35,478 nucleotides of DNA from a virus, in the IMG/VR virus record IMGVR_UViG_3300046665_000187, positions 1 through 35,478 of that record. One strand, 5' to 3'. Below the pieces are notes generated by a model. That model saw only the letters and a list, made by a program, of their open reading frames with translations. It searched no databases and had not been told where the DNA came from. The position numbers and the translations under genes were made by a program. Below, one piece after another: positions 398-8,313 of this stretch; within the stretch, counting starts at the first letter, position 1, and each line of letters opens with the position of its first letter.

Positions 398-693
398 TTA
401 AGACTTACACCAAAATTTCTCAAAATGTAGACGCGGCTCAATTTAATTTCACAAACGCACTTTCCATTATTGAAAAACTGCATTATGATTGTGGCTGCGT
501 TGATTTTCAAATTCATTTCCCTACCGAGAATTATTCAGTGCTGTCAAATGAAAAAGTCTTTGTTTCATTTACTTGTGGAGACGCATCAGCTGAAACGGTA
601 AAAGTAGGGGATTACGTAATTTTCGCCCCCGATAACATCTTCGAAATCGTTCCTGAAAAAGATTTTAATAAAAATTACAAAATTAATGCTTGA
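394..693 (+). CDS. Small hypothetical phage protein, GDYVI motif
   Basis: A 99-residue protein whose ATG overlaps the stop of the preceding gene by 4 nt. It carries VKVGDYVIFAPDNIFEIV near residues 71-88, matching the GQYLV region of its upstream neighbour, and two Cys residues in a CGC motif near residue 34. Function is unknown. Its TGA stop (691-693) lies inside the -35 box of the promoter that follows, so this gene closes one transcription unit exactly where the tRNA unit begins. Confidence 0.7.
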   Translation: MIKTYTKISQNVDAAQFNFTNALSIIEKLHYDCGCVDFQIHFPTENYSVLSNEKVFVSFTCGDASAETVKVGDYVIFAPDNIFEIVPEKDFNKNYKINA

Positions 694-718
694 CAAAACG
701 AAAAACCTGTGTTATAGT
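690..718 (+). promoter_or_regulatory. Sigma70-type promoter for the tRNA region
   Basis: TTGACA at 690-695, a 17-bp spacer and TATAGT at 713-718. This is close to consensus and sits 26 bp upstream of the first tRNA, so it probably drives the start of the tRNA array. Confidence 0.75.
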
Positions 719-744
719 TCGTGCATTAAATGATTACAAAGTTT

Positions 745-820
745 TGCGGGTTGGAGGAGTCAGGTTCCTTGCTAGGCTCATAACCTTGAGACGCCAGTTC
801 AAATCTGGCACCCGCAACCA
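745..820 (+). tRNA. tRNA with CAT anticodon (elongator Met or Ile2)
   Basis: Acceptor stem TGCGGGT/ACCCGCA, T-arm GCCAG/CTGGC with loop TTCAAAT, discriminator A and encoded CCA. The anticodon loop is CTCATAA, giving CAT. The initiator C1xA72 mismatch is absent (T1-A72) and the anticodon stem lacks the GGG/CCC of initiators. It is therefore an elongator Met or a lysidine-modified Ile2; sequence alone does not decide. One mismatch is seen in the anticodon stem. Confidence 0.85.
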
Positions 821-835
821 AATAACGAGACTGTA

Positions 836-1039
836 ATGAATCTTTATATTAAATCTGAGCCGACCGAACCAGATGAAGTGAAAACTTTTAATGTTATTTT
901 AGACGGCAAGAGAGTTAATGTGAGGGACATTAATATCGAAAGAGAATATGTAGATGGAGATGATGGTTATCCCTACCCGACTGGAAGAACCATTATTCTC
1001 CTGAAATTTTATGGAGAAATCGAACGTGGTAACGACTAA
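836..1039 (+). CDS. Small hypothetical protein (ILDGKRV-type)
   Basis: A 67-residue acidic protein starting at ATG 836, with GAGACTG upstream as a weak ribosome site. Residues 18-29 read FNVILDGKRVNV, resembling the V-F-I-N-G-x-x-V core of the two small proteins at 1026-1130 and 2557-2727. The three may form a small paralogous family spread through the tRNA region. It overlaps the next gene by 14 nt. No known function is recognised. Confidence 0.6.
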   Translation: MNLYIKSEPTEPDEVKTFNVILDGKRVNVRDINIEREYVDGDDGYPYPTGRTIILLKFYGEIERGND

Positions 1040-1130
1040 AGAAATTAAAGATCCAGATGGTACTAAGTACGTAGCTGTTTTTATTAATGGCGTAGAAGTT
1101 AGACCATCTAAGACTTCTGAAACTAAGTAA
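1026..1130 (+). CDS. 34-residue FING-type mini-protein
   Basis: A very short gene starting at GTG 1026, 9 nt after a GGAGAAA ribosome site that lies in the end of the previous gene. An in-frame ATG at 1011 has no such site. The core KYVAVFINGVEVRPSKT closely matches PVSVFINGKQVSGPPLK of the protein at 2557-2727. The shared core argues that this is a real gene and not a chance frame. Function unknown. Confidence 0.5.
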   Translation: MVTTKEIKDPDGTKYVAVFINGVEVRPSKTSETK

Positions 1131-1335
1131 TTTAACAATACGGCACCTCCTGAAACCAAGATCAAAAGTCGATAAGTTAGGGAACAAGGTGCTGTTTTTA
1201 GACTTCACATTCGGCACGTCAGTTAAAAAATGAACGGATAATCCGGGATTAATAGCGGTGTCAGCTGATCGGACGCGACAGCGGCGAAACATACTAGTTA
1301 AGAAAGCTAGAGTGTGTGGTCTAAAAACAGAAATA
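1131..1335 (+). other. Non-coding stretch with pairing potential
   Basis: No convincing gene. CGGCACCT (1141-1148) can pair with AGGTGCTG (1187-1194), giving an 8-bp stem with one G-U, and the palindrome CGGATAATCCG lies further on. An antisense frame covering this stretch has no family resemblance and is discounted. Confidence 0.3.
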
Positions 1336-1400
1336 TTGAAGGGTGTTGTCGCGTACTGTCCGCCACACTTAAATAAGGTTAGTCATAAACCTTCCTTCAA
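1336..1400 (+). ncRNA. Candidate structured RNA upstream of tRNA-Ile
   Basis: TTGAAGG (1336-1342) pairs with CCTTCAA (1394-1400). Inside are a GTGT/ACAC stem and AAGGTT/AACCTT (1375-1380/1388-1393) with a 7-nt loop, so a three-way junction can be drawn. It ends 9 nt before the tRNA. No RNA family is recognised. The call rests on pairing and position only. Confidence 0.4.
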
Positions 1401-1409
1401 GCATATTAA

Positions 1410-1486
1410 GTCAGTGTAGCTCAATTGGTTAGAGCACTCCCTTGATAAGGGAGAGGTTATTGGTTCAAATCCAGTCACTGATACCA
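1410..1486 (+). tRNA. tRNA-Ile (GAT)
   Basis: Regular cloverleaf: acceptor GTCAGTG/CACTGAT (first pair G-T), D-stem GCTC/GAGC, anticodon stem CTCCC/GGGAG with loop TTGATAA (anticodon GAT). The T-loop is TTCAAAT, the discriminator is A and CCA is encoded. Confidence 0.95.
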
Positions 1487-1871
1487 GTTTCACCATAGCT
1501 GTAAGCCGTTACGTTGTACGACGTTTCGAACCACAGCAATAAGGGCTCTTGAGGGATTGATTGGCGTACACCGATCTAGACAAAACAGACCTTGGCTAGT
1601 AGCGAGGAAGCTCTTCGCAAAAACCAGCATCGTATGTGGATCGTCCCGCTCCACTCTGTAAACACCTTTCTTTACAGATAGTTTAATATGCCTTTGGTGA
1701 TTTAATTTGCAGTTGCCGTTGAAGGAAAACGTTCGGCTGATAGGTGCGTGGGAGCGCTGATTACTAGTTTCAGTGTCCGTAACCGTCGAATACAAAGCGT
1801 GCCCTGACAGCCGGGAAAGATTCCGGCACTTATAAGTGGAGGAGAAAACTAGAACATTAGAAGGATATGAC
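1487..1871 (+). other. 385-nt gene-free, structure-rich spacer
   Basis: No plus-strand gene is visible. Strong local pairings are present: GCGAGGA/TCTTCGC near 1603-1619, an 8-bp TCTGTAAA/TTTACAGA hairpin (1655-1662/1671-1678), CTAGTTT/AAACTAG (1764-1770/1846-1852) enclosing a GCCGG/CCGGC hairpin, and an ACTTATAAGT palindrome. The last block ends just before the DUF1127 ribosome site, so it could be an mRNA leader. A 127-codon minus-strand frame spans it but has no family resemblance and no partner genes. Confidence 0.4.
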
Positions 1872-2009
1872 ATGTTCGAATTTTTCTCAAAGTGGAAGAA
1901 GCAGCGTCAGACGATTCGCGAACTTGAGCGTTTGACAAATAGGGAACTTGCCGATCTTGGTATCTCGCGTTGTGATATCAAGGAAATTGCTAGGCAGAAC
2001 GGGTTCTAA
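1872..2009 (+). CDS. DUF1127 family mini-protein
   Basis: A 45-residue basic protein starting at ATG 1872, with AGAAGGA 7-8 nt upstream. It carries the DUF1127 (YjiS-like) pattern: W-K-K-Q-R, then TIRELERLTNRELADLGISR and CDIKEIARQ. DUF1127 proteins are small, Arg-rich and numerous in alphaproteobacteria. Some are reported to act in RNA turnover and in carbon or phosphate responses; a phage role is not established. The gene sits alone between non-coding spacers inside the tRNA region and was probably taken from a host. Family assignment is from the motif and is strong for such a short protein. Confidence 0.8.
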   Translation: MFEFFSKWKKQRQTIRELERLTNRELADLGISRCDIKEIARQNGF

Positions 2010-2081
2010 AAAATGAATGGGCGGCTAGGCGTCCTTAGAATGATGAAACGAGCGCGCTTCGCTTTGTCATTCACCTAGAAC

Positions 2082-2179
2082 ATTCTTTTATTGGGTGGCA
2101 CTCAGGGTGCAAACTTAACCTTCAACTCGCTGCATCCGAGTCGATTTTGTTAAGTACTGGTGCCCCACAATAAAAGAAT
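2082..2179 (+). ncRNA. Candidate structured RNA, 20-bp closing stem
   Basis: Arms 2082-2101 and 2160-2179 match at 18 of 20 positions, the first 12 without a mismatch. Nested inside are ACTTAAC/GTTAAGT (2113-2119/2149-2155) and ACTCG/CGAGT (2125-2129/2137-2141). The 98-nt element ends 2 nt before tRNA-Pro, and no frame in it codes for a credible protein. It is not a tRNA and has no T-run, so it is not a simple terminator. Confidence 0.6.
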
Positions 2180-2181
2180 AA

Positions 2182-2256
2182 CAGGGTGTAGCTCAATGGT
2201 GGAGTGCTGGCTTTGGAAGCTAGAGGTTAAGTGTTCGAGTCACTTCACCCTGACCA
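2182..2256 (+). tRNA. tRNA-Pro (TGG)
   Basis: Perfect acceptor CAGGGTG/CACCCTG, D-stem GCTC/GAGT, anticodon stem CTGGC/GCTAG with loop TTTGGAA (anticodon TGG). T-loop TTCGAGT, discriminator A and encoded CCA. Confidence 0.92.
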
Positions 2257-2265
2257 ATTAACAAA

Positions 2266-2383
2266 TTCGGGAAGAAATCGGCTACTGTACATTCGGTTGA
2301 CAGATGTCGCTGGTAATCGGAGCGGGTCTTAGGCTAGCTCGTTATGCTAGTCCAGCAAGCCTCGCGCCTACGAGGTTCCCGAA
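2266..2383 (+). ncRNA. Candidate structured RNA, 8-bp closing stem
   Basis: TTCGGGAA (2266-2273) pairs perfectly with TTCCCGAA (2376-2383). Inside is a long hairpin at 2322-2365: GCGGGTCTT/AAGCCTCGC (8 of 9 pairs) stacked on GGCTAGC/GCTAGTC with a 7-nt loop TCGTTAT. The whole is 118 nt and ends 14 nt before the next tRNA-like gene. No coding frame or known RNA family is recognised. Confidence 0.5.
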
Positions 2384-2397
2384 CTTAATTTTACGAC

Positions 2398-2476
2398 TTG
2401 GGTGTAGCTCAGCGGGTTAGAGCGTCCTCACCACATGAAGAGGAAGGTCGCAGGTTCAAATCCTGCCACTCAGACC
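2398..2476 (+). tRNA. tRNA-like gene with a 10-nt anticodon loop
   Basis: Acceptor TTGGGTG/CACTCAG, D-arm GCTC/GAGC, a textbook variable region AGGTC and T-arm GCAGG/CCTGC with loop TTCAAAT. The anticodon stem TCCTC/GAGGA is perfect but encloses ten bases, ACCACATGAA, where seven are normal, so no anticodon can be assigned. The 3' end is A-CC-T, so CCA is not fully encoded. It may be a decayed tRNA, a decoy or a frameshifting tRNA. Confidence 0.65.
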
Positions 2477-2556
2477 TAATTTACGGTCGGCATTATCGAT
2501 GGGCCAAGCAATCGACAGCGGAGTGAGAAGCTTCGACCAAAGTTTAAGGGGATGTT

Positions 2557-2727
2557 ATGGACGATAACGACAATATTGATTGGCCTAAAGTTACAATAGC
2601 TCCATTTCATATCAAAGCCGTTGATAAGCCAGTTAGCGTATTTATAAACGGCAAGCAAGTTTCTGGCCCGCCACTCAAAGGTGGAGCTTTGAAAGAGTAC
2701 ATAGAAAGTTTAAAGAATCGGGTCTGA
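2557..2727 (+). CDS. FING-type small protein
   Basis: A 56-residue protein starting at ATG 2557, a few bases after AAGGGGA. Residues 30-40 (PVSVFINGKQV) match the core of the mini-protein at 1026-1130, and both lie directly between tRNA elements. Upstream, 2485-2540 contains GGTCG/CGACC and other short pairings and may be a structured leader. No known domain is recognised. Confidence 0.65.
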   Translation: MDDNDNIDWPKVTIAPFHIKAVDKPVSVFINGKQVSGPPLKGGALKEYIESLKNRV

Positions 2728-2842
2728 ACCACAGCACATATTATGTGTCAGATCGTCCCCGAAGCGTTGTTGGGCGGGTCGCGCCCGTTACAGGCGTATA
2801 CAAAAGATGGGTCGGAGACAGGCCGGAAAGTACGGTCACAAA
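2728..2842 (+). other. Non-coding spacer with several short hairpins
   Basis: No gene seen. Hairpins include CACATA/TGTG near 2736-2748, GGGCG/CGCCC near 2773-2787 and CGCC/GGCG with a 7-nt loop beside it. The composition resembles the other spacers that precede tRNAs, but no single long closing stem was found. Confidence 0.3.
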
Positions 2843-2916
2843 GGGATTATAGCTCAATGGCAGAGCAGGGAATTCTAAACTCTTTTACCTCGGTTCGATT
2901 CCGGGTAATCCCACCA
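2843..2916 (+). tRNA. tRNA, Arg (TCT) or suppressor-like CTA
   Basis: Perfect acceptor GGGATTA/TAATCCC, D-stem GCTC/GAGC, T-arm CTCGG/CCGGG, discriminator A and encoded CCA. The anticodon register is ambiguous. Stem AGGGA/ACTCT (one mismatch) gives loop ATTCTAA and anticodon TCT (Arg) but leaves no base 26. The standard register keeps base 26, has the weaker stem GGGAA/CTCTT, and reads CTA, which would decode UAG. Pairing favours TCT. Confidence 0.75.
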
Positions 2917-3054
2917 AACTACCCATATAAAGGATTTAAAATGGGCGATAATACGTAGCTTGAAAAAACATTAATACTTTCCATTAGAGCGCCGCCCTAA
3001 ATCGTCAAATAATCACTTGACAACGGCAATAAAATAATCTAATGGAGAATACAA

Positions 3055-3381
3055 ATGAGCATCGAACTTAAAGTTAAATCTAAGCACCTCACTGAAGAAG
3101 CAAAAATTATCCGTTTCGAAGAGAGGAAGCAAAAAGCAAAAAATAAGCCCGCGTTCTGGTCCCTGAGACAACACAGAACATGGGAAGTTAGAAATGAAAA
3201 TCGAGCCACTTTCTTAGCTCGCGCGTTTCTAGACGGCAGGGCTTACAAGTCTGTCGAGGTAAAAATCCACAGCAGCAATAAGCTAGTGGTTATTATTGTA
3301 CCTCGCGTCCTTGCCATGGTTAATAAGTACGGTGATAAGCAAATCACTAGGGAAGAATTGTTTAAGTGGATCGACGCGTAA
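3055..3381 (+). CDS. Hypothetical phage protein, HRT-x-E-V-R motif
   Basis: A 108-residue basic protein starting at ATG 3055 with GGAGA 7-8 nt upstream. The order LTEEAKIIRFEERKQ, then RQHRTWEVRNENRATFLARAF, then GRAYKSVE resembles a small conserved protein found in several large phages, where it has no assigned function. That resemblance is from memory of the pattern and not from a search. It lies alone between two tRNAs and is probably co-transcribed with them. Confidence 0.75.
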   Translation: MSIELKVKSKHLTEEAKIIRFEERKQKAKNKPAFWSLRQHRTWEVRNENRATFLARAFLDGRAYKSVEVKIHSSNKLVVIIVPRVLAMVNKYGDKQITREELFKWIDA

Positions 3382-3394
3382 GCGTCTTTCCTAC

Positions 3395-3470
<76 letters not shown>

Positions 3471-3479
3471 TATCTTTTG

Positions 3480-3590
3480 TAGAACTATTGGTACGATATG
3501 CTTCGAAGTCTTTAAGAATAGCGCGAACTATTCTGCTTTACGGAAAGATTAGCTATTACCGCCGTAACGGTCCAGAGGCCAATAGTTCTA
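3480..3590 (+). ncRNA. Candidate structured RNA, perfect 12-bp closing stem
   Basis: TAGAACTATTGG (3480-3491) and CCAATAGTTCTA (3579-3590) are exact reverse complements. Two internal hairpins follow: AGAATAG/CTATTCT (3515-3521/3528-3534, loop CGCGAA) and TTACGG/CCGTAA (3538-3543/3562-3567). This gives a three-way junction of 111 nt between tRNA-Thr (9 nt upstream) and tRNA-Gly (10 nt downstream). No credible protein frame and no known RNA family. Confidence 0.6.
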
Positions 3591-3600
3591 TTAAATATAT

Positions 3601-3675
3601 GCTGGTGTGGTCTAGACGGATGGGCCTTAGTTTTCCAAACTAAAGAGGATGGCTCGATACCATTCACCCGCTCCA
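3601..3675 (+). tRNA. tRNA-Gly (TCC)
   Basis: Anticodon stem TTAGT/ACTAA with loop TTTCCAA (anticodon TCC). The 3' end CACCCGC-T-CCA is typical of bacterial tRNA-Gly. The 5' strand is GCTGGTG, so base pair 3-70 is a T-C mismatch where tRNA-Gly normally has G-C, and the T-loop is CTCGATA instead of TTCGATN. Confidence 0.88.
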
Positions 3676-3688
3676 AATTAAAGTAGAA

Positions 3689-3780
3689 AGAAGGCCTCTC
3701 TGTCCTGTAATGGTCTTGGACATGCGCCCCTTTCCTGCTACGAAGGCAACGCGAATGGATTGACCACCATTTGACCTTCT
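3689..3780 (+). other. Possible structured RNA, 6-bp closing stem
   Basis: AGAAGG (3689-3694) can pair with CCTTCT (3775-3780). TGTCC/GGACA and CCTT/AAGG pairings lie inside. The support is weaker than for the other spacers, and it precedes a protein gene and not a tRNA. No coding frame seen. Confidence 0.25.
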
Positions 3781-3838
3781 AGTAGTTTCGCAGCTTAAGC
3801 TAATCTAGTGAAAGCGCTTGTCTGAAGAATAAGAGAGC

Positions 3839-4141
3839 TTGGGGCGGAACCAAGAAGCTGCACCAATTATAAAAGTAGAAAGTATTAAAGTGTTAACAGG
3901 CAAAGAAATTTTAGAGCTTCCATTAAATGCAGAAGAGAATGATGCTGGTGCATCCACGGTTCGTGAGTATCTTGTAACTCTTCTATCTGTGTTATGGGAC
4001 GAAGGTGAAAGCTTTAGCGGCAAGCGCCCATTAGGCAATAGTGGATGGGAATATGAACTTCTTGATCCATTAGAAGAATATGCAAATTCAAAGCAGAGCG
4101 CGGATCAAATGGTTCACGATGCCATTGAAGCACTACTCTAA
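3839..4141 (+). CDS. Hypothetical phage protein, GKRPLGNSGWE motif
   Basis: A protein of 100 residues from TTG 3839, which has AAGAGAG just upstream; a GTG at 3889 is an alternative start. The segment EGESFSGKRPLGNSGWEYELLDPL (about residues 56-79) recalls a short conserved motif, GKRPFGNSGWE.DLY, in hypothetical proteins of phages and bacteria. No function is known to me. It lies between a structured spacer and tRNA-Trp, 8 nt before the latter. Confidence 0.7.
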   Translation: MGRNQEAAPIIKVESIKVLTGKEILELPLNAEENDAGASTVREYLVTLLSVLWDEGESFSGKRPLGNSGWEYELLDPLEEYANSKQSADQMVHDAIEALL

Positions 4142-4149
4142 AACTCTTT

Positions 4150-4225
4150 GCGGCGGTAGTTTATAAGGTAAAACCTCAGTCTCCAAAACTGAAGAAGGCG
4201 GTTCGAGTTCCGCAACGTCGTGCCA
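4150..4225 (+). tRNA. tRNA-Trp (CCA)
   Basis: Anticodon stem TCAGT/ACTGA with loop CTCCAAA (anticodon CCA), discriminator G and encoded CCA, as in bacterial tRNA-Trp. The acceptor GCGGCGG/ACGTCGT has two G-T pairs and a G7-A66 mismatch. The T-arm GCGG/CCGC has only four pairs around an 8-base loop. The gene is recognisable but relaxed compared with its neighbours. Confidence 0.8.
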
Positions 4226-4253
4226 AGTAGAAAATATAAAAAGGAAATTTATT

Positions 4254-4523
4254 TTGGAATCAACTACGCCATCAGCACTTACTCCTGCTGTAACAGAAAT
4301 GACCCTCACGACTGAACGCCGCATCGAAGCCAAGCTAAAGGGCTACAAGGTCCACCCGTTGGATCAACTCGTAGAAGGCCGCTTGGTCAAGGGTGAGTTT
4401 GTTGCTTATGCCAAGCCTCGCTACGAACGTTACGAGCCTTATCTAAATCTAGGCAAGACCTACCCTTTCGGCTCTAAGCGCCAAGGTTTTATTGAAGAAG
4501 TCGAGAATGTCGAAGCCGCTTAA
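4254..4523 (+). CDS. Hypothetical protein with TTG start
   Basis: An 89-residue protein read from TTG 4254, preceded by AAGGAAA at a suitable distance. The next in-frame ATG would remove about 19 residues and has no ribosome site. Residues 26-80 are basic and aromatic (AKLKGYKVHPLDQLVEGRLVKG...KPRYERYEPY). No known domain is recognised. The 3' end overlaps the next gene by 17 nt in another frame. Confidence 0.65.
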   Translation: MESTTPSALTPAVTEMTLTTERRIEAKLKGYKVHPLDQLVEGRLVKGEFVAYAKPRYERYEPYLNLGKTYPFGSKRQGFIEEVENVEAA

Positions 4524-4857
4524 GTTTGGCATTATTTTAGAAGATTATCAAAGAGCCAATGAGCAATTTGAAGATTATTTAATTGATGTGATAGGCCTAA
4601 CCGATTGGTCCAATATCCATTACAATGACTATCTTTGTCAATATTATATCAATGATGTAGACGATGATAACAGAATTACACCAGAAGGTTTAGAGAAATT
4701 AAAGACCGATCACGCAATTCATTATCTAAAACTAAGACATAAGAACGGCATTGAAACTTCTTATCCCGGTGGATTTAGAAAGAAATACGATCCCGTTAAT
4801 CAAAAATGGATCACTAACCAACCAGTTTCTTGGGCCGAGTGCAAGGAAGATTTATAA
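4507..4857 (+). CDS. Hypothetical acidic protein
   Basis: A 116-residue protein from ATG 4507 (MSKPLKFGIILEDY); an in-frame TTG 15 nt upstream is less likely. It is rich in Tyr and Asp, with NIHYNDYLCQYYINDVDDDN near residues 39-58, and is predicted soluble. No family is recognised. Its TAA overlaps the next ATG as TAATG, so it is probably coupled with the SpeD-like gene, although no functional link can be shown. Confidence 0.7.
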   Translation: MSKPLKFGIILEDYQRANEQFEDYLIDVIGLTDWSNIHYNDYLCQYYINDVDDDNRITPEGLEKLKTDHAIHYLKLRHKNGIETSYPGGFRKKYDPVNQKWITNQPVSWAECKEDL

Positions 4858-5231
4858 TGAACTATTGGGGCAAGCATATCGTTATCGACGCCAGAGCCGG
4901 TTCTATTCCTGCCGTAACGTCTAAGGAACACATCGCTAAGTTCGTGGATGAGCTTGTCGAAAAGATTGATATGGTCAAATACGGCCCGATTTGGATCGAA
5001 CGTTTCGCAACGCATGATCCGATCAAAGCTGGCATTTCCTTTATCCAAATGATTGAAACGTCAAATATTACAGGTCACTTTGTCGATTGTGACGGAGATT
5101 TTTATCTTGACATTTTTAGCTGTAAGGATTATGATGAAGATGTAGTGATTGAACTTGTTAATGAGTATTTTTCACCACAAGAAATAGATACACTTACCCT
5201 TCTTAGAGACGCAAAGAGAATTGGTGAGTAA
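4857..5231 (+). CDS. speD: S-adenosylmethionine decarboxylase-like protein
   Basis: A 124-residue protein starting at ATG 4857 after AAGGAAG. It has the length and plan of prokaryotic class 1B AdoMet decarboxylases: GKHIVIDARAG at residues 5-15, GISFIQMIE, SNITGHF at 69-75 aligned with the family's S-H-(L/V)-(S/T)-x-H-T, and LDIFSCKD aligned with VD(I/V)FTC. The pyruvoyl-forming Ser69, His74 and Cys89 are all retained. An extra Thr separates the Glu and the Ser of the usual E-S self-cleavage site, which may alter processing. The family makes decarboxylated AdoMet for spermidine synthesis, but some phage members have other decarboxylase activities. No spermidine synthase is seen here. Confidence 0.78.
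   Translation: MNYWGKHIVIDARAGSIPAVTSKEHIAKFVDELVEKIDMVKYGPIWIERFATHDPIKAGISFIQMIETSNITGHFVDCDGDFYLDIFSCKDYDEDVVIELVNEYFSPQEIDTLTLLRDAKRIGE
5107..5135 (+). promoter_or_regulatory. Possible internal promoter within the speD-like gene
   Basis: TTGACA at 5107-5112, a 17-bp spacer starting TTTTTA, and TATGAT at 5130-5135. It could drive the Arg-like tRNA and the secreted protein downstream. It lies within coding sequence, so chance is possible. Confidence 0.4.
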
Positions 5232-5234
5232 ACT

Positions 5235-5316
5235 GCACTCCTATGCCGCAGCGCTACGAACGCTGACTAAGCTAACTGGAACGAAAATGCGAGTTCGAGT
5301 CTCGCGGAGTGCTCCA
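5235..5316 (+). tRNA. Aberrant tRNA-Arg (ACG)-like gene
   Basis: Acceptor GCACTCC/GGAGTGC is perfect, T-arm GCGAG/CTCGC has loop TTCGAGT, and the 3' end is T-CCA. The anticodon arm CAGCG/CGCTG with loop CTACGAA (ACG) comes only 7 nt after the acceptor stem, leaving no room for a D-arm. A D-arm-like stretch, TAAGCTAACTGGAACGA, lies instead between the anticodon and T arms. It is either a rearranged or decaying tRNA or a non-canonical one. Confidence 0.6.
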
Positions 5317-5319
5317 ACT

Positions 5320-5346
5320 ATAAGTTACGAACGGTTCATAACTTAT
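5320..5346 (+). other. Inverted repeat upstream of the secreted protein gene
   Basis: ATAAGTTA (5320-5327) pairs with TAACTTAT (5339-5346), continued by GA/TC after one mismatch. It lies 29 nt upstream of the ATG at 5375. It could be an operator or an mRNA hairpin; no T-run follows. Confidence 0.4.
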
Positions 5347-5374
5347 TAAACAAAACAAAACGGAGTTAATAAAC

Positions 5375-5608
5375 ATGACAAAGACTATTTCTATTCTATT
5401 CGCCGCCGCTCTCGCTCTTTCTGCCGGTTCAGCACTTGCTGGTTCTGGTTGGGGTCAGCGCTCCACCTGTGAAGCTCCACGCAATCAGCTAGAGACAGAA
5501 CGTGGTGTCTGTAAGTTTGACCGTGGCGTTACCGCTGAAGCCGAAGCTAAGTCGGTTCAGGAAGGCATTGACAGGACTATGGCTGAACGTGCCGCCAGAG
5601 GTAAGTAA
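5375..5608 (+). CDS. Small secreted protein with Sec signal peptide
   Basis: A 77-residue protein from ATG 5375 with CGGAG upstream. Residues 1-22 are a standard Sec signal: Lys at position 3, a hydrophobic core SILFAAALALSAGSA, and cleavage predicted after ALA22. The mature 55 residues are hydrophilic with two Cys (32 and 46) that could form one disulfide in the periplasm. No family is recognised. It stands alone between a tRNA-like gene and a terminator-like hairpin, so it is probably an independent unit. A role at the host envelope is an inference from the signal peptide only. Confidence 0.75.
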   Translation: MTKTISILFAAALALSAGSALAGSGWGQRSTCEAPRNQLETERGVCKFDRGVTAEAEAKSVQEGIDRTMAERAARGK

Positions 5609-5617
5609 TTAAAAAGG

Positions 5618-5648
5618 AATTAGAGAGTTTTTAACTCTCTAATTTTTA
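5618..5648 (+). terminator. Terminator-like hairpin before tRNA-Ser
   Basis: AATTAGAGAGTT and AACTCTCTAATT form a perfect 12-bp stem with loop TTT, followed by TTT. It ends 2-5 nt before tRNA-Ser, so it could terminate the secreted protein transcript or act as a processing site. Confidence 0.6.
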
Positions 5649-5649
5649 T

Positions 5650-5741
5650 GGAAGGGTGGCAGAGTCTGGCCGAATGCGTCGGTCTTGAAAACCGAAGGAC
5701 CCGAAAGGGTTCCGTGGGTTCGAATCCCACCCCTTCCGCCA
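5650..5741 (+). tRNA. tRNA-Ser (TGA)
   Basis: Acceptor GGAAGGG/CCCTTCC, anticodon stem TCGGT/ACCGA with loop CTTGAAA (anticodon TGA), long variable arm with GACCC/GGGTT pairing, T-loop TTCGAAT, discriminator G and encoded CCA. Confidence 0.95.
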
Positions 5742-5761
5742 ATTACACAGAAAGAACTAAA

Positions 5762-6385
5762 TTGAAGATTTATATTCTTATCGACCGCTCCGGTTCTATG
5801 TCCGCTAACTGGACCGAAACCATTGGCGCGGTAAATGCTTACGCCGCCGCACTAAGTGAAAATGGTGTTAAGAAGGGCGATATCACAGTTGCCGTTTTTG
5901 ACAATCAGGAACCTTTTAAAGTTATTCGTTCCGAAGTGAAGATCAAGGAATGGACTCCGATTGCTGCTAATGAAGTTCTGCCACGCGGGATGACACCTTT
6001 GTTCGACGCTATTGGCACTCTGGCTCAGACCATCTATCTGAAGGCTCCTAAGAAGGCTTCTATCGTTGTTGTAACTGACGGCCTTGAAAATGCGAGCCGC
6101 GAAATTACTATGGAAAATGCCAAAAAGTCTATTGACGATTTCAAGGCAAAGAATTATGACGTTGTCTTTATCGGCGCTGATTTTGACGCGTTCGGTCAGA
6201 GTGGCGGTCTAGGTGTATTGAGCGGTTCAACTCTCAATATGACTAAGGGCAATTACGGCAAAGCATTTAAGTCAGTAGCAAACCGTAGTGCTTTGTATGC
6301 TTCAGCTGATAGCGGCTTGATGTGGGCTTCGGAATTCAGTGATGAAGATCGTGCTAAAGCTGCTGGCGGCGCTGGCGTAATTTAA
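5762..6385 (+). CDS. von Willebrand factor A (vWA) domain protein
   Basis: A 207-residue protein read from TTG 5762; upstream codons in this frame run through tRNA-Ser and cannot be coding. The vWA fold begins at once: KIYILIDRSGSMS carries the MIDAS D-x-S-x-S (Asp8, Ser10, Ser12), Thr78 lies in RGMTPLFDAI, and Asp106 in IVVVTDGLEN. All metal-site residues are therefore present. There is no signal peptide or membrane segment, so it should be cytoplasmic. vWA proteins mediate metal-dependent protein contacts, often with AAA ATPases, but no partner gene is adjacent. It is isolated between tRNA-Ser and tRNA-Cys, 7 nt before the latter. Confidence 0.85.
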   Translation: MKIYILIDRSGSMSANWTETIGAVNAYAAALSENGVKKGDITVAVFDNQEPFKVIRSEVKIKEWTPIAANEVLPRGMTPLFDAIGTLAQTIYLKAPKKASIVVVTDGLENASREITMENAKKSIDDFKAKNYDVVFIGADFDAFGQSGGLGVLSGSTLNMTKGNYGKAFKSVANRSALYASADSGLMWASEFSDEDRAKAAGGAGVI

Positions 6386-6392
6386 CTAAGAC

Positions 6393-6468
6393 GACGGGAA
6401 GGCTGAATGGTTTAGGCGTTGGACTGCAAATCCGATAATCGCCAGTTCGATTCTGGCTCTCGTCTCCA
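6393..6468 (+). tRNA. tRNA-Cys (GCA)
   Basis: Acceptor GACGGGA/TCTCGTC, anticodon stem TTGGA/TCCGA with loop CTGCAAA (anticodon GCA), T-arm GCCAG/CTGGC with loop TTCGATT, discriminator T as usual for Cys, encoded CCA. Confidence 0.93.
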
Positions 6469-6473
6469 AATTT

Positions 6474-6565
6474 AGAGGGTTGGGTGAGTGGCTTAAACCG
6501 TCTCCCTGCTAAGGAGATTACCGTGGAAACGCGGTACGAGGGTTCGAATCCCTTGCCCTCTGCCA
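6474..6565 (+). tRNA. tRNA-Ser (GCT)
   Basis: Acceptor AGAGGGT/GCCCTCT, anticodon stem TCTCC/GGAGA with loop CTGCTAA (anticodon GCT), long variable arm with ACCGT/GCGGT pairing, T-loop TTCGAAT, discriminator G and encoded CCA. It is the second Ser tRNA of the array and lies 5 nt after tRNA-Cys. Confidence 0.95.
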
Positions 6566-6823
6566 GAATACCAGTTAAGGAAGTTGGCCTAGAAGCAGCC
6601 ATCTTTTAAAGAGTTTCGAGTTGAATACGTCAGTTCTGGTCCACAGTCTGAATAGGTCAACAGGGGAAGGAATTAGCGCAGTTTGCGTGGTACGTTCGTC
6701 GGGCGAAGCCTTCGAATTAATTTGGGGAGGGTATGGACAAGAATCCCCTTAGATGCTACGTAAGACCCTCAGAGAATTTGGCGTAACAGCACACTTTCTG
6801 GTTAAATTTTGAAGGAGAAACTA
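6566..6823 (+). other. 258-nt gene-free spacer with hairpins
   Basis: No credible gene. GAAGG/CCTTC near 6668-6712 encloses TTCG/CGAA, and GGGGA/TCCCC lies near 6724-6749. The stretch ends in the GAAGGAGA ribosome site of the next gene, so it may contain a structured leader. Confidence 0.3.
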
Positions 6824-6943
6824 ATGTTTAGAGCAATGCCTAACGATGGCGGTTTAAAGAAACCAGTCCGTAAATTCGAAGACACGTTCAGCGCAGAAAC
6901 ATTAGTGTTGGAAAAGTTCTTCAAAACGACCACGGAGACTTGA
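6824..6943 (+). CDS. 39-residue hypothetical mini-protein
   Basis: A 39-residue basic protein from ATG 6824, with a strong GAAGGAGA ribosome site 5-6 nt upstream; that site is the main evidence that it is real. It reads MFRAMPNDGGLKKPVRKF and ends in a Thr-rich tail. No family is recognised. Its TGA stop lies inside the -35 box of a promoter candidate at 6940-6968, and the next start follows after one base. Confidence 0.55.
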   Translation: MFRAMPNDGGLKKPVRKFEDTFSAETLVLEKFFKTTTET

Positions 6944-6968
6944 CATGGATGACGAAACAGTTTATAAG
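6940..6968 (+). promoter_or_regulatory. Sigma70-type promoter candidate
   Basis: TTGACA at 6940-6945, a 17-bp spacer and TATAAG at 6963-6968. It would restart transcription ahead of tRNA-Asn and the dense tRNA block at 7591-8016. It overlaps the start of the 42-residue gene, whose ATG lies in the -35 region, so that gene would need transcription from further upstream. Confidence 0.5.
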
Positions 6969-7073
6969 AGCGAGTTCTGTGTAGCTTTGACCAAAGCGGT
7001 TAAAGTCGCTATCGAAGAAATCGGCATAGAAAAACTAAAGAAACTTTCTTGGTTTATGTCGAATCGCAAATGA
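6945..7073 (+). CDS. 42-residue hypothetical mini-protein
   Basis: A short protein from ATG 6945 with CGGAG about 8 nt upstream. The sequence is amphipathic and mostly helical in character (ALTKAVKVAIEEIGIEKLKKL, residues 14-34), with one Cys at 12. One base separates it from the previous stop, so the two are probably co-translated. It ends 6 nt before the inverted repeat that brackets tRNA-Asn. No family is recognised. Confidence 0.5.
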   Translation: MDDETVYKSEFCVALTKAVKVAIEEIGIEKLKKLSWFMSNRK

Positions 7074-7079
7074 GAAGTT

Positions 7080-7176
7080 GAAGTAGATAGCTTGGGTCAA
7101 GCCAACTCGGTGGAGGCGTCTCACTGTTAATGAGATTATGGCAGGTTCGAATCCTGCGGCCCAAGCTATCTACTTC
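7080..7176 (+). repeat. 12-bp inverted repeat bracketing tRNA-Asn
   Basis: GAAGTAGATAGC (7080-7091) and GCTATCTACTTC (7165-7176) are exact reverse complements placed flush against the tRNA. They extend its 7-bp acceptor stem to about 19 bp. The 3' arm covers the positions of the discriminator and CCA. Confidence 0.85.
7092..7168 (+). tRNA. tRNA-Asn (GTT) with extended acceptor helix
   Basis: Acceptor TTGGGTC/GGCCCAA, anticodon stem TCTCA/TGAGA with loop CTGTTAA (anticodon GTT), T-arm GCAGG/CCTGC with loop TTCGAAT, discriminator G as expected for Asn. The 3' end reads G-CTA where other genes here have CCA, and base 8 is A instead of T. The CTA is forced by pairing with the bracketing repeat. 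Confidence 0.85.
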
Positions 7177-7196
7177 TAAATTATAAGGAGGTTATC

Positions 7197-7583
7197 GTGG
7201 TAAAAGTTAAACTGTTCACGTATATAAATGTCTTCATTGATGATTACTATGATAATCAAGTTTTGACCCAAGGTATCTCTGATTGGGAAGAAATTACTGA
7301 AGAAGATTTTGAATACATTAAAAATAATCTACACATTCTTCAGGAAGCTAATAAGCATTCTCAGCAATACGTTTTGGTGCGTGAGCCTGAAGGTGGCGCG
7401 CTACAAGCAATCAAATCCATTAAGGATGAGGTTGAGCGAGCCGCGAAGGCGGAACTGGAACGCAAAGCTGAAGCTAAACGTAAAAATCAAGCAGCGGCGC
7501 AGAAGAAAGCCGATAAGGCTAGGAATAAAGAATTAGAACAACTGAAGAAGCTTAAGGAAAAGTATTCCGACGTTGAAGTTTAA
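7197..7583 (+). CDS. Hypothetical coiled-coil protein
   Basis: A 128-residue protein from GTG 7197, preceded by a perfect AAGGAGG ribosome site. Residues 1-75 form an acidic, aromatic domain of unknown type (FIDDYYDNQVLTQGISDW). Residues 76-125 are a long Ala/Lys/Glu-rich helix with heptad-like spacing, predicted to be a coiled coil. No enzymatic motif is visible. It lies between tRNA-Asn and tRNA-Tyr and ends 7 nt before the latter, so protein and tRNAs must share a transcript. Confidence 0.8.
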   Translation: MVKVKLFTYINVFIDDYYDNQVLTQGISDWEEITEEDFEYIKNNLHILQEANKHSQQYVLVREPEGGALQAIKSIKDEVERAAKAELERKAEAKRKNQAAAQKKADKARNKELEQLKKLKEKYSDVEV

Positions 7584-7590
7584 ATAATTT

Positions 7591-7673
7591 GGACGTATTG
7601 GGCATTGGCAGGCCCGCCGGATTGTAGCTCCGGTCCTTAAGGCTTGGTGGTTCAACTCCATCTACGTCCACCA
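7591..7673 (+). tRNA. tRNA-Tyr (GTA)
   Basis: Acceptor GGACGTA/TACGTCC, D-stem GGGC/GCCC, anticodon stem CCGGA/TCCGG with loop TTGTAGC (anticodon GTA), enlarged variable arm as in bacterial Tyr, T-arm GGTGG/CCATC, discriminator A and encoded CCA. Confidence 0.93.
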
Positions 7674-7679
7674 TAACTA

Positions 7680-7753
7680 TCAGGATTCGTCTAATGGCAA
7701 GGCGCGAGTTTTTGGTACTCGTTATGGTGGTTCGAATCCATCATCCTGAACCA
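7680..7753 (+). tRNA. tRNA-Gln (TTG)
   Basis: Acceptor TCAGGAT/ATCCTGA, D-stem CGTC/GGCG, anticodon stem CGAGT/ACTCG with loop TTTTGGT (anticodon TTG), T-loop TTCGAAT, discriminator A and encoded CCA. Confidence 0.93.
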
Positions 7754-7759
7754 AATCAA

Positions 7760-7835
7760 CCGTCTTTAGCTCAATTGGTTAGAGCGCGCGATTGTGGATC
7801 GCGATACCCTTGTTCAACTCAAGGAAGACGGTCCA
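7760..7835 (+). tRNA. tRNA-His (GTG) lacking G-1
   Basis: Acceptor CCGTCTT/AAGACGG, D-stem GCTC/GAGC, anticodon stem CGCGA/TCGCG with loop TTGTGGA (anticodon GTG), T-arm CCTTG/CAAGG. The base before position 1 is A, and position 73 is T, followed by CCA. The G-1:C73 pair of most bacterial tRNA-His is therefore absent. Confidence 0.92.
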
Positions 7836-7854
7836 AACATTTAAAATTTAATAC

Positions 7855-7930
7855 GGCTCCTTCGCCAAGCGGTTAAGGCATCAGGTTTACATCCTGACAT
7901 GCGCTAGTTCGATCCTAGCAGGAGCTACCA
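7855..7930 (+). tRNA. tRNA-Val (TAC)
   Basis: Acceptor GGCTCCT/AGGAGCT with G1-T72, anticodon stem TCAGG/CCTGA with loop TTTACAT (anticodon TAC), T-arm GCTAG/CTAGC with loop TTCGATC, discriminator A and encoded CCA. Confidence 0.92.
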
Positions 7931-7933
7931 TAT

Positions 7934-8016
7934 GCGGGTATGGTGGAATTGGCAGACACACCAGATTTAGGTTCTGGCGCGCAAGCGTGGGGGTTCAAGT
8001 CCCTCTACCCGTACCA
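7934..8016 (+). tRNA. tRNA-Leu (TAG)
   Basis: Acceptor GCGGGTA/TACCCGT with G1-T72, anticodon stem CCAGA/TCTGG with loop TTTAGGT (anticodon TAG), long variable arm, T-loop TTCAAGT, discriminator A and encoded CCA. It is the last tRNA of the array in this window. Confidence 0.94.
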
Positions 8017-8037
8017 AATTTCAAAGGAATTAATTTA

Positions 8038-8244
8038 ATGGATGGAATAAAATTCCTTCGTGCCGGAAATGAGTTAGCCAATAAGGTAAAAGAAGTAAAG
8101 TTAGACGGCAATGTTCTTAAAGAAGCCGTTCATTACGCAGACATAGAATTTGGGTATGTTGTAGTATGGGACTGGCATACAGCAGGCAGGGATACTTTTC
8201 TCGTCCTGCATGGCGTAGTAGAAATCGTTTGGAAAGAAGATTAA
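8038..8244 (+). CDS. Hypothetical protein, last gene of the tRNA unit
   Basis: A 68-residue protein from ATG 8038 with AAAGGAA 8 nt upstream; reading further upstream would enter tRNA-Leu. The sequence has an alternating strand-like C-terminal half, YADIEFGYVVVWDWHTAGR then TFLVLHGVVEIVW, suggesting a small beta domain. No family is recognised. The gene is followed by an AT-rich stretch and the promoter of the structural module, which marks the end of the tRNA region. Confidence 0.7.
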   Translation: MDGIKFLRAGNELANKVKEVKLDGNVLKEAVHYADIEFGYVVVWDWHTAGRDTFLVLHGVVEIVWKED

Positions 8245-8284
8245 TTTTTTCCTTCTGAATTTTTGTACTTTTTTAATTTTTAGC

Positions 8285-8313
8285 TTGACATTTTAATTTT
8301 TGTATGATATAGT
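8285..8313 (+). promoter_or_regulatory. Promoter of the head module
   Basis: TTGACA (8285-8290), a 17-bp spacer TTTTAATTTTT..., and TATAGT (8308-8313). It lies 32 bp before the portal start and belongs to the T/A-spacer promoter set. Confidence 0.8.

Follow-up and report, generated by a model that had tools for sequence, protein, structure and literature searches.

The window analysed here is the whole of a 35,478-base virus record (IMGVR_UViG_3300046665_000187), a tailed-phage fragment whose genes include those for the portal, tape measure, central tail fibre and ribonucleotide reductase. Between positions 690 and 8016 it carries a same-strand array of 17 tRNAs called by ARAGORN, interspersed with small open reading frames (ORFs) and preceded by a near-perfect sigma-70-type site at 690–718 (Table 1). 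A search with the portal protein identified relatives L122–L127, with best-segment identities of 77–91%, as well as more distant ones; L125 is identical to L124 across the array, and the two are counted as one lineage. The portals of six cultured Rhodobacterales phages, DSS3_MAL1, RcXuper, DSS3P8, RpAliso, MD18 and V10, are 41–44% identical to that of the window, and all six share the layout of the window, with the tRNA array immediately 5′ of the portal gene. Aligning the portal to GTDB genomes brought up no relative. Judged by its relatives, the window phage is alphaproteobacterial.

The arrays of this group hold several unusual tRNA-related genes. At 2843–2916 lies a tRNA with a CUA anticodon, of the amber suppressor type, as is also found in L124 and L143; the counterpart anticodon is UCA in L123 and UUA in L144 and L159. 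TAG is the stop codon of none of the 29 long ORFs of the window, and most of its major genes become no longer when TAG is read as sense. The gene at 5236–5317 resembles tRNA-Arg(ACG), with acceptor, anticodon and T arms, a D arm replaced by 8–9 nt and a long variable region; missed by both ARAGORN and Rfam, it is kept in L123 and L124 with compensatory changes in 4 of 20 pairs. A tRNA-Phe(GAA)-like gene at 3790–3862 was detected only by a permissive Rfam search. Two distant relatives carry permuted alphaproteobacterial tmRNA genes (L128:14506–14890 and L143:12315–12726, matching RF01849 and RF04321) with the tags VNDNQVDIALAA and ANDNFAPVAYALAA; the same two models have no match in the window. 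Finally, DSS3_MAL1 (L163:5450–5612) and MD18 (L168:4069–4227) have an unannotated spacer of 159–163 nt between tRNA-Gly and tRNA-Ile that is strongly folded, at about −65 to −69 kcal/mol, and matches no Rfam family.

Scored in fixed 100-nt segments, the array has a mean folding z of −0.48 versus −0.49 for the rest of the window. The array is therefore no more folded than the remainder, and only specific elements stand out. Element P, directly 5′ of tRNA-Pro, is the focus of what follows.

Table 1. Features of the tRNA array discussed in the text (window coordinates).
Feature	Position	Strand	Remarks
Likely sigma-70 promoter of the array	690–718	+	TTGACA-17-TATAGT; consensus match only
Element B, multibranched closed RNA of 143 nt, 5′ of tRNA-Ile	1190–1332	+	z = −5.6; not listed in the initial annotation
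Element C, conserved non-coding region after tRNA-Ile	1490–1700	+	80–86% identity; probably closed by UCACCA/UGGUGA
Element Q, short stretch with structure, 5′ of P	2019–2078	+	Invariant GGCGGCUAGGCGUC and a covarying hairpin; weak
Element P, closed RNA domain with putative pseudoknot, 98 nt	2082–2179	+	z = −5.5; homologues L123:1934–2031 and L124:4325–4421
P1 helix, 5′ strand	2082–2105	+	22 pairs, interrupted by bulges; no mismatch in the distal 12 bp
Putative pseudoknot strand GGUGCA	2106–2111	+	Partner 2131–2136; G–U in two phages, A–U in L124
P2, 5′ strand	2113–2119	+	2 compensatory pairs, one G–U
P3 hairpin, 8 pairs, invariant 7-nt loop CUGCAUC (2130–2136)	2122–2144	+	2 compensatory pairs
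P2, 3′ strand	2149–2155	+	Three-phage structure alignment
P1 helix, 3′ strand	2157–2179	+	Inverted-repeat arm and three-phage structure
tRNA-Pro(UGG)	2182–2256	+	Directly 3′ of P; exchanged, or diverged separately from P
Closed spacer from tRNA-Thr to tRNA-Gly	3469–3601	+	Helix 17/20; no homologue

The 98-nt sequence of P folds at −36.4 kcal/mol, compared with a mean of −19.6 kcal/mol for shuffled sequences, and none of 200 shuffles folds as well. An initial annotation of this DNA had described P as an undescribed, non-coding structured RNA, distinct from a tRNA, in which a closing stem with 18 of 20 positions matched encloses two nested stems of 7 and 5 bp and ends 2 nt before tRNA-Pro. Our analysis bears this description out: the arms at 2082–2101 and 2160–2179 match at 18 of 20 positions, the inner stems are of 7 and 5–8 bp, tRNA-Pro begins at 2182, and no ORF of at least 40 aa on either strand overlaps 2010–2181. 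P receives no ARAGORN call, and the RF00005 matches at E ≤ 2 across 600–8300 are the listed tRNAs only. Over the same interval and threshold no Rfam family matches P, and blastn of 2000–2181 against 50,697 phage records and 72,556 plasmid records found no match. What the earlier description lacked is a probable 6-bp pseudoknot between 2106–2111 and 2131–2136. Two sites in the window, 2082 and 7077, have a pair of 20-nt arms that match at 18 or more positions within 100 nt; 40 dinucleotide-shuffled windows contain no such site. At 2125–2141, inside P, a consensus scan also picked up a weak hairpin that resembles a terminator but has a broken T-run; such hits are common by chance, and this one carries no weight.

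Homologues of P lie upstream of tRNA-Pro in L123 and in L124 (with its identical array in L125), with 94% and 87% identity, respectively, to the window. We scored the structure in these three distinct sequences as 43 pairs, comprising 22 in P1, 7 in P2, 8 in P3 and 6 in the pseudoknot. Standard pairs occupy 127 of the 129 cells (98.4%), and four pairs have changed on both sides in a compensatory way, two of them in P2 and two in P3. In a control in which the partners were slid, pairing was 34–45%, with at most one compensatory pair. Ten of 500 shuffles reached the observed covariation, a comparison that has small power with three sequences. The check proposed with the initial annotation, compensatory changes in homologues, thus came out in favour of a structure, through four pairs in only three sequences. 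Among the wobble pairs, five show G–U on the + strand versus one on the − strand, an excess that marks the + strand as the RNA. On this comparative evidence, we consider it highly probable that P has real structure at the RNA level.

The remaining two helices behave differently from P2 and P3 in these alignments. The distal 28 columns of P1 are invariant in the three phages (hypergeometric P = 0.003) and form the most conserved part of P. With so little variation, P1 is out of reach of a covariation test, and the constraint on its sequence seems to go beyond pairing. The pseudoknot helix has a single one-sided change among the three phages, and the P3 loop is unchanged while the P3 stem varies, which fits a pseudoknot; we adopt this pairing as a reasonably favoured working hypothesis.

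These patterns also bear on the possibility that P is a feature of the DNA whose RNA fold is incidental. It might then be a promoter of the sigma-54 type (GGCAC-N-TGCA in 2098–2111) or else a small element, mobile or palindromic. Its perfect terminal inverted repeat, its invariant distal arms and its presence or absence in comparison with L127 would all suit such an element, and the sequence in 2098–2111 resembles the −24/−12 consensus of sigma-54. By contrast, a DNA element would not account for the compensatory changes in the interior or for wobble pairs that are strand-specific. P is also single copy in the window record, and patterns for its core, run against IMG/VR and GTDB genomes, hit no contigs beyond those already known to carry it except in unrelated coding sequence. 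For the promoter variant, the −24/−12 spacing is one base shorter in L124, a shortening that sigma-54 is not known to tolerate. We regard a DNA-level origin of the pattern as improbable.

Given that spacers in Rhodobacterales phages hold tRNA-like genes uncalled by ARAGORN, that the window has two missed tRNA-like genes of its own (3790–3862 and 5236–5317) and that L128 and L143 carry permuted tmRNAs, P could in principle be a decayed or aberrant piece of a tRNA or tmRNA. Set against this are the lack of a match at E ≤ 2, the 22-pair outer helix with its coaxial inner stems, and a conserved fold of its own that has no cloverleaf, T arm or CCA, which together make such an origin very improbable. 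Two further candidates were rejected: a T-box, whose GGGUGG is present in the window and reads GGGAGG in L124, with no match in Rfam either, and a hammerhead ribozyme, whose core pattern matches nothing within the non-coding elements of the array.

The tRNA next to P has a history different from that of P. The tRNA-Pro of the window is only 53–56% identical to those of L123 and L124, compared with the 94% and 87% identity of P in the same phages; the tRNA-Pro closest to that of the window, at 80% identity, belongs to L127, a phage without P. In all three phages with P, its junction with the tRNA falls 1–2 nt before the mature tRNA 5′ end. With differing tRNA-Pro genes beside a conserved P, P is not tied to one tRNA-Pro; at the level of these alignments, the two are shown to evolve separately, P being inherited independently of the adjacent tRNA. 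In L124, tRNA-Pro is directly followed by an HNH-type endonuclease gene (L124:4505–4867), with a Pfam HNH match just under the cut-off; this gene might mediate the exchange of tRNAs within the array.

The distribution of P is narrow. In L127, a DUF1127 gene is followed by a short AT-rich spacer and then tRNA-Pro, an arrangement which indicates that P and the preceding stretch Q were gained or lost. A covariance model of P has no match in the whole 185-kb contig of L127 or in L128, L134, L142–L144 and L159–L162. This absence from L127 and all other relatives examined indicates that P is dispensable for the group. A degenerate 15-mer for the P1 arm hit 120 unrelated contigs in IMG/VR, the pattern being too loose. 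The best reading of these comparisons is that P is a narrowly distributed, lineage-specific structured RNA domain.

The initial annotation had gone further, grouping P with closed elements at 1336–1400, 2266–2383 and 3480–3590 in one class of non-coding RNAs that are co-transcribed with the tRNAs. As a class, the four elements do not hold together: they have no common sequence or fold, two are near chance and no companion is kept in both relatives. The fold at 1336–1400 has a z of −1.2, with 28 of 200 shuffles as good, and those at 2266–2383 and 3480–3590 have z values of −1.9 and −2.9. By local alignment the first is retained in L124 and not in L123, and the other two have no conserved counterpart in L123 or L124; the covariance model of P detects none of the three. 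Co-transcription, the other part of that proposal, fares better, and from the promoter-like site at 690–718 we consider it likely that P would be transcribed together with the array.

Element B, upstream of tRNA-Ile, is stronger than all of these companions. Across the three phages, 13 of its 45 pairs show compensatory changes and 6 have a break, and its closing helix covaries extensively; patterns for its core, searched elsewhere, led back only to the same contigs or to coding sequence that is unrelated. Element C has a moderate fold (z = −2.0), with 8 of 64 pairs compensatory and 9 with a break. A single long-range, GOLLD-like RNA made of B, tRNA-Ile and C was considered and rejected: B and C each appear to be self-closed, and pairing across the tRNA is unneeded.

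Long helices recur at tRNA ends in these arrays. Across ten loci, strong inverted repeats number 11 in 70 kb of array versus 3 in 136 kb outside, an enrichment that was computed after the finding was seen and over loci related by descent rather than independent. The four strong inverted repeats of the window itself all lie inside its array. Several long near-perfect helices flank or enclose a tRNA, and these provide the main support for a processing role. At 7077–7179, for example, the leader and trailer of a tRNA-Asn without an encoded CCA continue its acceptor helix, giving a perfect inverted repeat of 17 bp; similar leader–trailer helices occur at tRNA-Asn and tRNA-Gln of L127 and at tRNA-His of L160, and tRNA-Asn of L123 and L124 has none. 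Long helices flush with a mature RNA end are also known as the stalks at which RNase III processes rRNA-type precursors. P1 shares this geometry, with the differences that it encloses a spacer rather than the mature RNA and that cleavage at P1 is putative.

The closest rival to a small-RNA reading is that P is purely a processing or insulation spacer, in which P1 would act in cis to separate tRNA-Pro from the upstream RNA and be cut and discarded, and the interior would have no function of its own. That long helices flush with tRNAs recur around unrelated interiors (3469–3601, tRNA-Asn of the window and L127, tRNA-Gln of L127 and tRNA-His of L160) and that distal P1 is the most conserved portion of P are both in keeping with this possibility. 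The interior of P, however, is itself conserved, and its compensatory changes and invariant, pseudoknot-capable loop go beyond the needs of a spacer; further, the same tRNA-Pro in L127 manages without P. We therefore treat the spacer as a serious alternative of lesser probability.

The reading that we prefer, with a probability of roughly 0.5 as a whole, is that P is a co-transcribed RNA domain that is cut out at P1 and whose core may persist as a small RNA. The + strand RNA would form a compact domain in which the outer P1 encloses stacked P2 and P3 and the P3 loop pairs with the strand just 5′ of P2. Transcribed with the tRNA array from the promoter at 690–718, P would be excised from the precursor during maturation. 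P1, about two helical turns long and flush with the 5′ end of tRNA-Pro, would be the stem at which an RNase III-type enzyme acts, and RNase P would then finish the tRNA-Pro 5′ end. The conserved pseudoknotted core would persist as a small stable phage RNA, similar to RNAC and RNAD of phage T4. Not all steps are equally secure: that P is released as a distinct stable RNA is a finely balanced proposition leaning slightly to the doubtful side, and a role of P1 as the processing site is more tentative still. Lying 1–2 nt from the RNase P site, a helix might even obstruct the maturation of the tRNA instead of aiding it.

RNAC and RNAD sit in the T4 tRNA cluster, on its transcript, and they are the RNAs that P would most resemble in the way it works. 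P lies on the same strand as the array, with a promoter-like site upstream and no ORF, and would share the array's transcript. Both T4 RNAs are small, non-coding and of unknown function (PMC9697503), and like P they come from a phage with its own tRNAs. They differ in having been seen as transcripts, whereas P is known here from sequence alone, and in their host group. The blastn search of phage records described above gave no match, so P ‘works like’ them rather than being a member of their family.

Two other groups of phage RNAs invite comparison. Structured and pseudoknotted phage RNAs, GOLLD and ROOL often lie near tRNA islands, and the GOLLD linker sometimes holds tRNAs (PMC12286853); many GOLLD RNAs exceed 800 nt. 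With P they share a tRNA neighbourhood and, if ours is correct, a pseudoknot, and they differ in being ornate folds of several hundred nucleotides, compared with a closed domain of 98 nt; their Rfam models have no match in the window, L123 or L124. Theta ribozymes are small HDV-like pseudoknotted RNAs beside phage tRNAs, often suppressor tRNAs, and have been proposed to act in tRNA maturation by processing the 3′ trailer, with a cleavage site adjoining the tRNA (PMC10879173). P, also a small and putatively pseudoknotted RNA adjoining a phage tRNA, instead lies on the 5′ side of tRNA-Pro, 2 nt away, has one pseudoknot in a different topology rather than a nested double one, and has no HDV-family Rfam match at E ≤ 2. 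By these sequence and model searches, P belongs to no named family tested.

With T4 RNAC and RNAD, GOLLD and ROOL as precedents, a class of phage non-coding RNAs co-transcribed with tRNAs is not new; P and B are new small examples of the folded RNAs already known from phage tRNA clusters. A more speculative extension, which we think unlikely as things stand, is that P and B are founding members of a set of separate small phage RNAs that ride the tRNA transcript, are freed as it matures and have targets in trans, such as ribosomes, tRNAs or host regulators, making the array a hub for fast-evolving RNA genes.

The structured RNAs in phage tRNA clusters, from T4 RNAC and RNAD to GOLLD and ROOL, have roles that are mostly unknown, and this locus adds to them small, covariation-supported structured RNAs from alphaproteobacterial phages. 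As P illustrates, an element of this kind can be retained even when the adjacent tRNA is exchanged at its mature end. Because cultured relatives with the same layout (DSS3_MAL1, MD18 and DSS3P8) infect hosts that grow in the laboratory, whether the spacers of tRNA arrays yield stable RNAs or mere processing stems is directly testable.
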